Source of the DNA: a virus
Direction: 5' to 3' (one strand)
DNA length: 44,663 nucleotides
Virus record (IMG/VR): IMGVR_UViG_3300043395_001765
Coordinates: 1 to 44,663 of that record
Translations under genes and position numbers: made by a program
Part shown: one piece after another, positions 11,091 to 37,277 of the stretch
Numbering within the stretch: the stretch's first letter is position 1
How the letters are laid out: each line of letters begins with the position of its first letter
Notes under the pieces: model-generated
Database searches by the model: none
What the model was told of the DNA's origin: nothing
Seen by the model: the letters and a program-made list of their open reading frames with translations, nothing else

Positions 11091-14000
11091 ATGACTGGCA
11101 TAGATGTCCCAATTAGTTTTACAGTTGTTGGAAAAAGCGAAGTCCAGAGTGCCCTAAAGTCTATTGTGTCAGAGCTAGACAAACTAGCTCAAACAAAAAA
11201 TAAAACAGCAGTTAGAGAATCTGTAACTAAATCACTTTTTCCCTCAGGTTCTGGTGTAGACTCGCTTGGTGACAATAAAGAATTACGTAACCTAGTGTCA
11301 CAGGCACAAAAGCGTGTTCTTAACGCAGAATCTTTGGCTAAACTTCAACAATTTTCTCAATCAAAAGATTTTGAAAGTAATGCAGCTTTATCTGCGTTAG
11401 TAGCAAAACAACAATCTCCTCTTGCTTCTTTTATTAGACAAGCTGATGCTGCTGGTCTTGGAGTACAAAATTCAAAAGGCGAGTTAAACACTAAAAATCT
11501 TGCAAAAGCAGTAAAAGATAACATAACTTCTTTACTAGAAAGAGGAAGACTTACTAGTAAACAATTAGCAGAAATAGAAAAACTAATTGAAAAAGGTGAT
11601 TTTGAGAAACTTGCTCAAAAACTGCAATATCACGAATCTAAACAGACTAATGCTACCAAAATAAAAGAAGATGTTAAAAAAGCTGCAAGTAATGCAATAA
11701 ATAATGTAACAGCATTAACAAATGTTGCAAATGCAGCCGGTACTGCCGCTCAACAGGTACAAACACAGTTAAACAACGCAACGTCTCCTCAAAATTTTGG
11801 CACTAACCCAGCTGCATGGGCAGCTCAAGCTGCTGCTGCTTTAGCAAATACACAGGCTGTTCCTACAGCTGCTACTGGCGGTATGGGTACTGGCGGTGGT
11901 GGCACTGCTGGTGGTTTAGGTGGAGGTGGTATTGGGGGTATGACAGGAGTTCCTGGTGCCCCAGACCCTATTGATGAATACTTAAGCGCACTTAGTAGAA
12001 GATTTTCCACAATATCAACAAGTTTTCTTAAAGTAAACGAAGTTGCTAGAGGAAGTTTACGCTCGCTTACTCCACAAAGCGTAGAAAATTTTTTAAATCA
12101 ATTTGGAACTACTCTTGAAGAGTTTAGAACTGAAACTGCTAAAATATTAGAGCAAGAGGGCGCACAAATTGGAATGACCCCCGCAGAAAATGCTGCGTTG
12201 GGTCAAATGATTTTTGGTACTTCTAGGACTCTTTCTGGACCAGAATTCGCTAATCTTAATGAAGCCGAAATTGCTCAACAAGCTAGACTTCTTGGTGCAG
12301 GGGATATTGCTACTGCCTTTCCAAATATGACTGACGAGCAACGTGAAAAGGCGTTGCGTATTTTTACTACTCAGGTAGCACAAACAACAAAAGCATATAA
12401 GCTTCTTGCTGAGACTGTAGAAAACATTAATGTTAAGTTAGGTCAGTTAAATCGTGAAGAAGCTAACGTAATTATTTCTCGTATTAGAACTGAAAGAAAT
12501 CCTGAATTAGCCCAGCAAGCTATGGAGCAACTTAACCGAAGAAGAGTAATTTTTGCTGGTCAGGATTTACAATACAGAGAAAGTGAATATGGTAATCTAA
12601 GTCCTGCTGAACTGGCTTCTTTATCTCCAAGTGTAGCAAACGATATAGAAGAAAATCGTAATTCTGTAAAAAGAAACGCAAATCAAGCACTTGGGGCACC
12701 TAGAACAGCATTTGAACAATTAGCTACTTTAGGTGGTAGAATAGCTGCTATTTTCTCTTTAATACAATTTACAGTTGGGACTACAATCCAAACTTTACAA
12801 CAATTTTTAGAGCAAGCAAATAGACTTGAAAAAGTATCTGCTACAGTTAATGCACTATCAGGAAACTTTGATACCTACTCAAAATCACTTACACTAGCTG
12901 CAACCCAACAACGAAAGTTTGGAGGAACTCTTGAAGAAAACTTACAAGGTCTTTCTTCACTTATTCCTGTATCTAAACGATATAATGCAGACTTACAGCA
13001 ACTAGATAATATTGCCCGTCGTCTTGCTATTGTTGACCCTTTGCAAGGATTCAGCGGTGCGGCTATTGCACTTAAAGAATTCTTTTCAGGTGATATTACT
13101 TCACTTTCGAGAAGATTTGAAATTGACCGTGCTACACTTAATAGTATTAAAGAAGCTGGAGATAAAACTGCTCAACTTCAAAAACTTGACCAAGTTCTCA
13201 ATGATTTAGGTATTTCAAATGAAGTTTTAAATGCCCGCACTAAAACTTCGGCAGCAACATTTGATAAATTCGGGGCAACAATTTCAAATATTACCACAGC
13301 TTTTGGTGCTTTTATTCAAGACGCTCTTAGACCAACTGTGGAGCAACTCGATAATTTTTTAAGTGTATTTAATTCAACTATAACTTTTGTAGAAAATAAT
13401 CGTGCTATAAACTTAGATATTTCATCTAACTTCGCAAAATTAGCACCCACAGTTAACTCAATTATTAATCTACAAAATCAAGTTGCAAACAATACTGAAC
13501 TTTTAAGCAATAAAGACTCGCAGTTATCACAAAAATTTGTTGATAATGCAGATAATAGAGCACAGAAACTAAAAGAAATTGCGCAGTTGCAAAATCAGTT
13601 AACTAGAGAAGTTTCAAGCACTACTTTGGAAGTTAATAATTTAATTCGGCAGTTTAACGAAGCAAACAATGTTCAGGCTCAATTTATTACTGATAAAGAG
13701 ACCGCAGTACAATTTGCCAAAGCCGCTTCCACTGGAGATGTTAACGCACTTGTTCGTGGTTTACGAGAGCCCAATATATTAGGAATACCTAGATATGAAT
13801 CTGCTAATCGTGCCGACCAATCTCTTAATAATCTACTTGGTAACATAACTGGATTCAAATCACCACTTACTCCGTTTGTACTACAAGGAGATAGAGGCGG
13901 AACACAAGCGCAATTATCTATTTTAGCAGACTTATTAGACCAGATAATAGAAAAAAGAAGCCAACTTGATAGAGTTGGTCAAGAAGCTTTAGTTAGAGAT

Positions 14001-15824
14001 GTAGCAGATGCAAATAACGCTTTTGTATATGCTAATTTAAGTGCAAAAGAATTTATTGACTTACTTATACAAATAAATGATAAATCTTATACTTTTGGTC
14101 AGTCAACTATTGTTATTTCAGACGCTCTAAATGCACTATCAGAAGCACAAAAAAGACAAGCTGCTAATTTAGCCGCACTTAATAAACCTATTCTAAGTAC
14201 CGAAGTAAGCCTTGAAATAGTAAAAGGTACTATTGAACAAATAAATGAGTTTACTAAAAAACAAACTCAGACCCAATTAGAACAGTATGCACTGGCACAA
14301 CGTCTCGGAGACCAATACTCTGAACAGGCTAAAGCAAAAAATGATGAATTTAAGGCTAATAGACAACTATTAGCATCCGACGAATTTGACCGTAATGACT
14401 ACCTGGCTAAGTTTGGTCAGTCAATTACACTACAGGCTAGATTAGCATTAGAACAAGAAAAATCAATTGGAATCATTGGGTTGATGCGAGATGGTCTTCT
14501 TGGTTATAATGTTACCTTAACCGAAGCCGTAGGTTTAGCTAAAGAACTTCAAAATTCTTTTAGAGGATTAGCAACTGGTAGCTTACTATCTGCACTCCCT
14601 GTCGGACAGCAACTTCAGTTTCAACAAGGTGTGCTTAGTGGCAGTGGTCCATTTGCGGCACGTAATCAAAATGAAGCCTTTGGTGCTGTCACTAATATAA
14701 TCGGTCTTGAAATGAAACGCTCTGATATGCAGCGTCAGGTAGGACAAAGACTAACAGATATTGCAAAAGATGATGCTGATAAACGACAAAAACTTCAGGA
14801 AGATTATAATAAAGACTTGCTTAAAATGCAAGAAGACTACGAAAAAAGAAAACTGGAACTTTTGAAAAAGAGTGAGGTTGATAAACGTCAAGGTAAAGTT
14901 GACTTCTATAGCTCGTTAATGAACGCTGATAATCTTACTCCAGAACAACAAAAGATGTTGTCTGGTAAGTATGAAACTCTTTTTGGTCAAGTAAGTGAAC
15001 TGCGTAATCAAGGTCAGTTTGATAAGGCTACTGCTGTATTAGAAGCTGGTACTACTCAGATTACAAATGAGATGAATTATCTTCAGGAAGTAGCTAATCA
15101 AAAAGAAAATATCAAAGAAGCCGACAAAGATATTGCTAAACTTCAAGAAGACTATAATAAAGCAGATTCAGCAGATTCACGTAAATCAATACTTGACAAA
15201 ATTGAACAACGTCGCCAAGATAAAGATACCGCAGAAAATCGTATTAAGCAACTCGATGAAATTAGAACATTACAAACTGATGCCGATAATGAACGAGTAA
15301 AAACTGCTACCGAGGCAGAAGACAAAATTACGGATGACTACAATAAACAAGTAGATGAACGTAAGAAAGCATATCTTGATGCCCTTAAAGAACAAGATGC
15401 AGCATATAAAAAGTCCGTTGATGATGCAAAAAAGCAATCACAGGAACTTTATGACCAGAATATTACTAGTCTTAACTTTCTGACTGCTCTAGGTGTATTT
15501 TCCGAAACTATTCCAAATTTATTTAAGCAGATGTTAAGTGCTGGGAGAGACCCAGAGGGTTTAGACCGTATTGACGCAAAAATCAGTGAGGCTGAGAGAA
15601 CATTACTTGAGGCTACTCCAGCAACACTGCGTCCTACAATTAGTGCTTTAATTACTACTCTTGAAAAACTTAACGCAGGTCCCAGTCAGACACAAATAAA
15701 CCCAGAAGACCCACTGCCAACTGCTCTGGATAAAGTTGCTACAAGCACAGATGAATTAAAGACATCAATTGATGTACTTAATAGCACTCTTAAAACATAC
15801 ATGGCGGGCGGATATTATAGATAG
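11091..15824 (+). CDS. Tape measure protein
   Basis: At 1577 aa it is by far the longest gene and follows the tail chaperones. Such proteins set tail length and take part in DNA delivery. The N-terminal third is helical with KSIVSELDKLAQ-type repeats. A Gly-rich linker (about residues 263-283) separates it from the central part. A hydrophobic, possibly membrane-active segment IAAIFSLIQFTVG lies near 555-567. Long charged coiled coils fill about 1220-1460. By the common rule of about 0.15 nm per residue, the tail would be about 235 nm long. No lysozyme or peptidase motif was found. Confidence 0.92.
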   Translation: MTGIDVPISFTVVGKSEVQSALKSIVSELDKLAQTKNKTAVRESVTKSLFPSGSGVDSLGDNKELRNLVSQAQKRVLNAESLAKLQQFSQSKDFESNAALSALVAKQQSPLASFIRQADAAGLGVQNSKGELNTKNLAKAVKDNITSLLERGRLTSKQLAEIEKLIEKGDFEKLAQKLQYHESKQTNATKIKEDVKKAASNAINNVTALTNVANAAGTAAQQVQTQLNNATSPQNFGTNPAAWAAQAAAALANTQAVPTAATGGMGTGGGGTAGGLGGGGIGGMTGVPGAPDPIDEYLSALSRRFSTISTSFLKVNEVARGSLRSLTPQSVENFLNQFGTTLEEFRTETAKILEQEGAQIGMTPAENAALGQMIFGTSRTLSGPEFANLNEAEIAQQARLLGAGDIATAFPNMTDEQREKALRIFTTQVAQTTKAYKLLAETVENINVKLGQLNREEANVIISRIRTERNPELAQQAMEQLNRRRVIFAGQDLQYRESEYGNLSPAELASLSPSVANDIEENRNSVKRNANQALGAPRTAFEQLATLGGRIAAIFSLIQFTVGTTIQTLQQFLEQANRLEKVSATVNALSGNFDTYSKSLTLAATQQRKFGGTLEENLQGLSSLIPVSKRYNADLQQLDNIARRLAIVDPLQGFSGAAIALKEFFSGDITSLSRRFEIDRATLNSIKEAGDKTAQLQKLDQVLNDLGISNEVLNARTKTSAATFDKFGATISNITTAFGAFIQDALRPTVEQLDNFLSVFNSTITFVENNRAINLDISSNFAKLAPTVNSIINLQNQVANNTELLSNKDSQLSQKFVDNADNRAQKLKEIAQLQNQLTREVSSTTLEVNNLIRQFNEANNVQAQFITDKETAVQFAKAASTGDVNALVRGLREPNILGIPRYESANRADQSLNNLLGNITGFKSPLTPFVLQGDRGGTQAQLSILADLLDQIIEKRSQLDRVGQEALVRDVADANNAFVYANLSAKEFIDLLIQINDKSYTFGQSTIVISDALNALSEAQKRQAANLAALNKPILSTEVSLEIVKGTIEQINEFTKKQTQTQLEQYALAQRLGDQYSEQAKAKNDEFKANRQLLASDEFDRNDYLAKFGQSITLQARLALEQEKSIGIIGLMRDGLLGYNVTLTEAVGLAKELQNSFRGLATGSLLSALPVGQQLQFQQGVLSGSGPFAARNQNEAFGAVTNIIGLEMKRSDMQRQVGQRLTDIAKDDADKRQKLQEDYNKDLLKMQEDYEKRKLELLKKSEVDKRQGKVDFYSSLMNADNLTPEQQKMLSGKYETLFGQVSELRNQGQFDKATAVLEAGTTQITNEMNYLQEVANQKENIKEADKDIAKLQEDYNKADSADSRKSILDKIEQRRQDKDTAENRIKQLDEIRTLQTDADNERVKTATEAEDKITDDYNKQVDERKKAYLDALKEQDAAYKKSVDDAKKQSQELYDQNITSLNFLTALGVFSETIPNLFKQMLSAGRDPEGLDRIDAKISEAERTLLEATPATLRPTISALITTLEKLNAGPSQTQINPEDPLPTALDKVATSTDELKTSIDVLNSTLKTYMAGGYYR

Positions 15825-36987: not shown

Positions 36988-37072
36988 GCCGAGGTGGTGA
37001 AATTAGCAAACACGCTAGCCTTAGAAGCTAGTAGAGAAATCTTTGGGGGTGCAAGTCCCTTCCTCGGTACCA
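36988..37072 (+). tRNA. tRNA-Leu(TAG)
   Basis: The 85-nt cloverleaf folds with acceptor GCCGAGG against CCTCGGT (one G-T pair), anticodon arm CTAGC-CTTAGAA-GCTAG (anticodon TAG), a long class II variable arm, T-arm with TGCAAGT loop, and encoded CCA. It would read CUA and probably other CUN codons. Confidence 0.93.
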
Positions 37073-37074
37073 AC

Positions 37075-37160
37075 GGAGAGATGACAGAGTGGCTTAATGT
37101 ACCTGCTTGCTAAACAGGAAGTCTATTGACTCGTGGGTTCAAATCCCACTCTCTCCTCCA
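37075..37160 (+). tRNA. tRNA-Ser(GCT)
   Basis: An 86-nt class II tRNA: acceptor GGAGAGA/TCTCTCC, anticodon loop TTGCTAA (anticodon GCT, codons AGC/AGU), variable arm with AGTC/GACT pairing, T-loop TTCAAAT, and encoded CCA. The anticodon stem has a C-A mismatch next to the loop, and the discriminator base is T, where bacterial serine tRNAs usually have G. Confidence 0.9.
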
Positions 37161-37161
37161 A

Positions 37162-37275
37162 TGGGCTGGCTACGCTATAAAATCATTACAGACTTCTAAG
37201 TGGTTCGACTCCACAATGCTTTGCAAATTCGGAAATGATTTCTGTTGATAGGGGTGCAATTCCCCTACAGCCCAC
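37162..37275 (+). ncRNA. Unusual 114-nt tRNA-like RNA with two T-arm-like hairpins
   Basis: TGGGCTG (37162-37168) pairs perfectly with CAGCCCA (37268-37274) as an acceptor stem. Next to it, AGGGG-TGCAATT-CCCCT is a normal T-arm. The D-arm is missing and the anticodon arm is replaced by a long extension. AAATCATT (37180-37187) pairs with AATGATTT (37234-37241); alternatively ACAGA (37188-37192) pairs with TCTGT (37241-37245) around CTTCTAA, a perfect Arg(TCT) anticodon loop. Inside sits GTGG-TTCGACT-CCAC (37200-37214), a second canonical T-arm. It could be an interrupted tRNA, a mosaic of two tRNAs, or a new tRNA-like RNA. Confidence 0.6.
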
Positions 37276-37277
37276 TA

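Follow-up and report, generated by a model that had tools for sequence, protein, structure and literature searches.

A tRNA-like RNA with a second T-arm inside its anticodon-type stem, conserved between two related phages

The stretch of DNA analysed here (the window) is the complete IMG/VR virus record IMGVR_UViG_3300043395_001765, with a length of 44,663 bases. Positions 37163-37277 of its forward strand contain a real structured element, whose base pairing, as judged from comparison with a homologue in a related phage, is under selection. The element is probably a tRNA, with a tRNA-Gly(UCC) as the likely parent, into whose anticodon loop 41 nt were inserted, and it may well be a non-decoding, unspliced, stable RNA that is produced from the phage tRNA operon and serves as a tRNA mimic or decoy. 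Explanations of this family, a tRNA-like regulator or decoy, were among the options listed in the initial annotation of the window and are the most likely ones.

The genes examined in the window (DNA polymerase A, a RecA/UvsX-like protein, a DnaB-type helicase, ThyX and a phosphate-binding protein) fit a phage. Megablast of the right third of the window against 50,697 GenBank phage records gave no match. Five tRNAs were detected in the window with ARAGORN and Rfam, none of them at the element. Directly upstream lie, as initially annotated, a tRNA-Leu and then a tRNA-Ser:

36988-37072, forward strand: tRNA-Leu(TAG), upstream neighbour (ARAGORN, Rfam)
37075-37160, forward strand: tRNA-Ser(GCT), immediate upstream neighbour (ARAGORN, Rfam)

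Between tRNA-Leu and tRNA-Thr, the window carries tRNA-Ser, the element, small genes and the gene for the phosphate-binding protein; in two phages of 89% identity (L082 and L085), this place is taken by another, shorter stretch. The tRNA-Leu(TAG) of the window shows A18 and G55 (TGCAAGT) as opposed to G18 and T55 (TTCAAGT) in L082 and L085, a paired change at the 18-55 elbow contact. G55 is likewise found in the outer T-loop of the element.

By itself, the window sequence was weak evidence for an RNA, because the folding of the element only moderately beats that of shuffled sequences (z-score of -2.2, with 7 of 200 shuffles as good). The element was missed by ARAGORN and Rfam RF00005, also with introns allowed or with relaxed thresholds, and was not recognised as a cloverleaf by tRNA models. 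Chance pairing in ordinary intergenic DNA would agree with the modest z-score and with the occurrence of loose descriptor matches in shuffled DNA as well (see below), but it is refuted by the homologue and its covariation.

A search with the DNA polymerase yielded six close relatives. The homologue of the element lies in L084 (IMGVR_UViG_3300012667_000859), at L084:17565-17674, and is 77% identical to the window copy; the DNA polymerase of this phage is 69% identical to that of the window. The window copy starts 2 nt after tRNA-Ser(GCT) and the L084 copy 2 nt after a tRNA-Ala(TGC), so that each begins 2 nt past the CCA of a tRNA; the surrounding tRNAs differ between the two phages. A covariance model built from both copies (R1) scored the window copy at 146.7 bits and the L084 copy at 137.1 bits, both being training sequences. 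The parts of the RNA are as follows (window coordinates):

37163-37277, forward strand: whole tRNA-like RNA, from G1 to the CCA-like end ACTA at 37274-37277 (model R1, covariation)
37163-37168, forward strand: 5' strand of the acceptor stem, GGGCTG, pairing with CAGCCC at 37268-37273 (GGGTTG/CAACCC in L084, one double substitution)
37169-37187, forward strand: linker replacing the D-arm, without a D-stem; CTANGCTATAA conserved, L084 5 nt shorter (alignment)
37188-37192, forward strand: 5' strand of the anticodon-type stem, ACAGA, pairing with TCTGT at 37241-37245 (CCGAA/TTCGG in L084, three double substitutions)
37193-37199, forward strand: anticodon-loop-like heptamer CTTCTAA, ATTCCAA in L084 (aligned by R1 to CTTCCAA of T4 tRNA-Gly(UCC))
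37200-37240, forward strand: 41-nt insert, of equal length in both phages (88% identical versus 73% outside, p 0.09)
37200-37214, forward strand: inner T-arm GTGG-TTCGACT-CCAC (all 19 nt shared with L084 when the flanks are included)
37217-37225, forward strand: small hairpin TGC-TTT-GCA, CGC-TCG-GCG in L084 (one double substitution)
37226-37240, forward strand: possible D-arm-like hairpin AAT-TCGGAAATG-ATT with a conserved GG in its loop (pairs invariant between the copies)
37241-37245, forward strand: 3' strand of the anticodon-type stem, TCTGT (covariation with ACAGA)
37250-37266, forward strand: outer T-arm AGGGG-TGCAATT-CCCCT, with the same loop in L084 (double substitutions at two pairs, and G-C to G-U at one more)
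37268-37273, forward strand: 3' strand of the acceptor stem, CAGCCC, followed by A37274 and CTA, in L084 by U and CCA (sequence comparison)

The proposed structure comprises six helices, and all 26 pairs are formed in both sequences. Seven pairs differ by double substitutions: one in the acceptor stem (C-G to U-A), two in the T-stem (A-U to G-C and G-C to U-A, with another pair changed from G-C to G-U), three in the anticodon-type helix (ACAGA/UCUGU to CCGAA/UUCGG) and one in the small hairpin (U-A to C-G). When the partners were slid by 1-3 columns, no double substitutions were left, and 1 of 500 shuffles reached the covariation values obtained from this single comparison of two members. The two copies are identical in both T-loops and over the 19 nt that make up the inner T-arm and its flanks. 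It was the L084 homologue with its compensated pairs that turned the evidence for the element strong. Folded alone, the L084 copy is energetically ordinary (z-score of -0.97). Minimum-energy folding reproduced neither the proposed core nor the inner cloverleaf discussed below. An AUCA/UGAU stem extension taken from the window fold was unconserved in L084 on inspection.

The initial annotation had proposed a search for homologues and a check for covariation, which yielded the L084 copy and covarying substitutions in the acceptor stem, the T-stem and the ACAGA/TCTGT helix. Its outer T-arm, with two double changes, its inner T-arm hairpin, identical in L084, and its pairing of ACAGA with TCTGT around CTTCTAA, with three double changes, were all recovered. 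The acceptor stem had been given as 7 bp (TGGGCTG/CAGCCCA); it pairs perfectly in the window, but its length is 6 bp in either copy: L084 has T-T in place of the seventh pair (T37162-A37274), whose bases make better sense as position -1 and the discriminator. The extent of 37162-37275 was revised, with G1 at 37163 and the 3' end ACTA at 37274-37277. A 62-nt arm closed by 8 bp (AAATCATT/AATGATTT) had to be abandoned, since a 5-nt deletion in L084 leaves three of the eight pairs.

From the outside inwards, the proposed structure has a 6-bp acceptor stem, a stemless D-linker containing CTANGCTATAA, the 5-bp anticodon-type helix, a 4-nt variable loop and the T-arm, with acceptor stem and T-arm both of tRNA type and both covarying. 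No convincing D-stem for a D-arm with G18G19 was found in either copy, and GG is missing from the window linker. Enclosed by the 5-bp helix are a 7-nt linker, the T-arm GTGG-TTCGACT-CCAC, AA, a 3-bp hairpin and the possible AAT/ATT hairpin. These inner elements follow one another as in a circularly permuted cloverleaf (the T-arm, then a capped short acceptor, then the D-arm-like hairpin), and we put forward the hypothesis that such a fold may form here, its D-arm-like pairs being invariant between the copies.

The probable tRNA ancestry is indicated by the results of running R1 on the T4 tRNA region. The model scored 36 bits on T4 tRNA-Gly(UCC), where it skipped the core exactly (...CAGA-CTTCCAA-[]-TCTG-ATGAT...), and 27 bits or less on other uninterrupted tRNAs. 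The initially suspected interruption of an anticodon loop by about 41 nt is borne out by this alignment, by the covarying stem and by the length of the insert, which is exactly 41 nt in both phages. After removal of the insert, the L084 copy, which has CCA and U73, passed as tRNA-Gly(tcc) in ARAGORN once the threshold was relaxed, and the window copy was rejected by bacterial ARAGORN because the D-arm is gone. The excised window copy was nearest to T4 tRNA-Gly in pairwise alignments with 94 tRNAs and gave only weak tRNA matches against phages. ARAGORN detected no uninterrupted tRNA-Gly in eleven related records (some covered in part). The Gly origin, based on one reference tRNA (that of T4) and the L084 anticodon, can be proposed with only moderate confidence, because the excised L084 copy aligned nearer to a tRNA-Leu than to T4 tRNA-Gly. 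The Arg(TCT) identity assigned initially does not hold, as the would-be anticodon is UCU in the window and UCC in L084 (loop ATTCCAA).

The insert lies where tRNA introns do, at the 3' side of an anticodon loop closed by a paired stem, and both its constant length and the ARAGORN call for the excised L084 copy could point to an intron-containing tRNA, from which the 41 nt would be excised and the halves ligated into a tRNA-Gly or tRNA-Arg of 70-74 nt. In favour of this reading, a phage tRNA independent of the element was detected at L057:658-758 in intron mode only; its anticodon loop is enlarged and its D-arm intact. The exons, however, do not form a tRNA with a fixed anticodon (UCC versus UCU; relaxed threshold only in L084, no tRNA in the window), and conservation of the insert is no lower than that of the exons (88% versus 73%; Fisher p 0.09, suggestive only). 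The insert also includes its own covarying hairpin. By eye, a possible UUCY/GGAA helix leaves 1 and 6 unpaired nt, unlike the 3+3 of a bulge-helix-bulge. RtcB was not found in four phage records, with the control positive in 9 of 14 genomes, and a search for a T4-type ligase matched nothing, with no positive control either. Group I introns need far more than 41 nt, and no such Rfam match was obtained at the element. Excision of the insert, including the archaeal-type removal considered initially, would be unlikely, because the D-arm is lost, the anticodon drifts from UCC to UCU, conservation does not drop within the insert relative to its flanks, no bulge-helix-bulge was seen and no RtcB was found in the four phage records. 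As an observation on the L057 tRNA itself, ARAGORN in intron mode calls it Gly(acc) with 20 extra nt, and its D-arm and T-arm are intact.

The lack of a D-arm, G55 in the T-loop, CTA in place of CCA in the window and the restriction of the element to 2 of the 18 related records searched might also be taken as marks of a functionless mosaic of two tRNAs, an option raised in the initial annotation, or of a decaying tRNA pseudogene. Such a sequence is hard to reconcile with seven compensated pairs, none broken, and an identical insert length, which leaves this explanation very improbable and largely refuted.

Under the favoured explanation, a tRNA, most likely tRNA-Gly(UCC), would have lost its D-arm and acquired in its anticodon loop a domain of 41 nt, holding a second T-arm that is invariant, a small hairpin that covaries and a stretch with a conserved GG. 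The acceptor stem and outer T-arm would keep the look of a tRNA for RNase P and CCA repair, and the RNA would be matured and stabilised along with the neighbouring tRNAs; we infer this processing from the position in a tRNA operon, from the acceptor stem and T-arm and from established tRNA maturation. Having no ordinary anticodon loop, the presumably unspliced, full-length RNA would be unable to decode. In agreement with this, both copies have lost the D-arm, the would-be anticodon is not kept, and the window encodes a canonical tRNA-Arg(UCU) at another site, as do ten relatives of which all or nearly all the sequence was searched. A further point in favour is that the same phage group carries other RNAs in which an acceptor stem and T-arm go with an abnormal anticodon half. 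As a tRNA mimic, the RNA would most likely offer its two T-arm elbows to host factors that read the upper half of tRNAs, as a decoy for, or an inhibitor of, either a tRNA-handling enzyme or a defence nuclease aimed at tRNAs. Such decoy action is weakly suggested by analogy: there are proposals and reports of phage tRNAs by which defences that target tRNAs are evaded or countered (PMC10264068, PMC11555353), which makes it plausible rather than demonstrated.

A bolder and rather doubtful proposal is that two tRNA elbows are joined tail to tail via one anticodon-type stem, the outer formed by the acceptor stem and T-arm and the inner by a permuted mini-cloverleaf (T-arm, 3-bp capped acceptor, GG-bearing D-arm-like hairpin), and would act as a bivalent mimic against host tRNA-targeting factors, as part of a wider, unannotated set of upper-half RNAs. 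The location directly after a tRNA and before unrelated genes in both phages would also suit an element that acts in cis, or structurally, within the transcript of the tRNA operon, serving 3' processing, stability or insulation with no partner in trans. This is quite unlikely, however, given that the inner T-arm and both T-loops are conserved in sequence beyond mere structural need and that the close relatives L082 and L085 carry tRNA genes without the element.

In 18 related records, many of them fragments, R1 found the element only in the window and in L084's phage, and 40 further stretches from eleven relatives contained no copy beyond that of L084. BLAST with either copy detected no homologue among GenBank phages; a match in CcrColossus covers the T-arm within a tRNA-like stretch of a tRNA cluster, and a match in TIN2 had no hairpin. 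A pattern search for the inner T-arm on either strand of IMG/VR viral contigs returned only L230 and L231 and also missed the exactly matching L084 contig, so that its negatives are incomplete. The GTDB genomes gave no match in a pattern scan of the type that missed L084 in IMG/VR, and the phage marker protein had no relative there. Several further candidates were rejected. A PHROG 3972 gene downstream of the element had no match in the examined loci of close relatives, including L084, and its position is thus probably coincidental. A downstream sequence complementary to the inner T-arm (TTGTGGAG) is missing downstream of the L084 copy and likely due to chance, and the best candidate for a second insert copy in the window (24 of 41 matches) is noise.

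Other unusual tRNA-like RNAs were recorded alongside. The tRNA cluster of CcrColossus contains several CCA-ended tRNA-like stretches without tRNA annotation (L149:1261-1535 and 2072-2335). A scan of 781 kb with a descriptor for an acceptor stem and T-arm without an ARAGORN tRNA gave eight matches, two of them clearly poor, against four in shuffled sequence, so that the count alone proves little. Coherent matches were the window element, a 133-nt tmRNA-like RNA, a 162-nt RNA and an RNA whose anticodon stem has 10 bp. The 133-nt RNA was found in three records by descriptor and in five after a model search (102-154 bits):

G001:23689-23821, reverse strand: 133-nt tmRNA-like RNA (model search)
G002 = L269:10028-10160, reverse strand: 133-nt tmRNA-like RNA (model search)
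G003 = L274:1791-1923, forward strand: 133-nt tmRNA-like RNA in L084's phage (model search)
G004 = L277:6052-6184, reverse strand: 133-nt tmRNA-like RNA (model search)
G005:32277-32408, reverse strand: 133-nt tmRNA-like RNA (model search)

It matches Rfam RF00023 at 79 bits with about 288 model positions missing, and has a G3-U70 wobble in three aligned copies, a CCA end and 18 pairs with double changes; no consistent tag frame was found in it. In L084's phage, this mini-tmRNA is followed by the 162-nt RNA (L274:1925-2086), with an acceptor stem, T-arm, CCA and a long branched arm, and next in tandem by a tRNA whose anticodon arm is only CCC-GTGA-GGG (L274:2090-2162). The same phage carries two tandem tRNA-like RNAs (L273:13842-13926 and about 13930-14015), both missed by ARAGORN, with D-arm and T-arm, anticodon stems of 8-11 bp, a common TTCTAGA loop and a promoter-like TTGACT-17-TATAAT ahead. 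A second RNA with two T-arms occurs at L230:9299-9395, L231:about 1158-1256 and L266:about 1488-1602 (Pseudomonas phage Marin, OR683406); it has a long outer stem and further hairpins, with 16 double-change pairs among the three sequences. Its inner T-arm, GTGGTTCGACTCCAC, is invariant and the same as that of the element, a likeness that partly reflects selection bias, because L230 and L231 were found by that very sequence, and for which homology is not claimed. Phage Marin has a further T-arm-bearing, CCA-ended stretch without an annotated tRNA (L266:1330-1414).

The element escapes standard tRNA finders and Rfam though its pairing is clearly selected, which, together with the other unusual tRNA-like RNAs of this phage group, suggests that phage tRNA regions may hide a layer of non-decoding RNAs, like the species RNAs of T4, and bears on the question of why phages keep tRNA genes. 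Compared with known systems, it aligns with phage tRNA-Gly(UCC), such as that of T4, in the acceptor stem, anticodon-type stem, loop and T-arm (36 bits), but differs by the 41-nt insert in the anticodon loop, the absence of a D-arm, G55 in the T-loop and an anticodon that is not kept. With the tRNA introns of archaea and eukaryotes (reviewed in PMC4090602), it has in common that a short stretch is inserted 3' in the anticodon loop, whereas no bulge-helix-bulge was seen, the insert is conserved and structured, the exon body is abnormal and the carrier is a phage with a presumably bacterial host. Like the tRNA-like domain of tmRNA, it combines an acceptor stem and T-arm with a stemless D-region and a helix at the anticodon position that leads into an inserted domain; unlike tmRNA, it has no tag, no pseudoknots and no G3-U70 pair, and the Rfam tmRNA models gave nothing above threshold on the window (best tmRNA-type score of 8.8 bits, T-arm only). 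The stable RNAs species 1 and 2 of T4 (rnaC, 139 nt; rnaD, 119 nt), whose biological role is reported as unknown (PMC3014915, PMC9697503), show no sequence relation to the element, neither being matched by R1 in the T4 region. In rnaC, a long variable arm is present and no second T-arm lies inside an anticodon-type stem; like the element, however, it has a T-arm and a long arm replacing the D and anticodon arms. Both T4 RNAs resemble the element in size and lie in a phage tRNA cluster beside a tRNA, and by place, size and shape they are its nearest known analogues.
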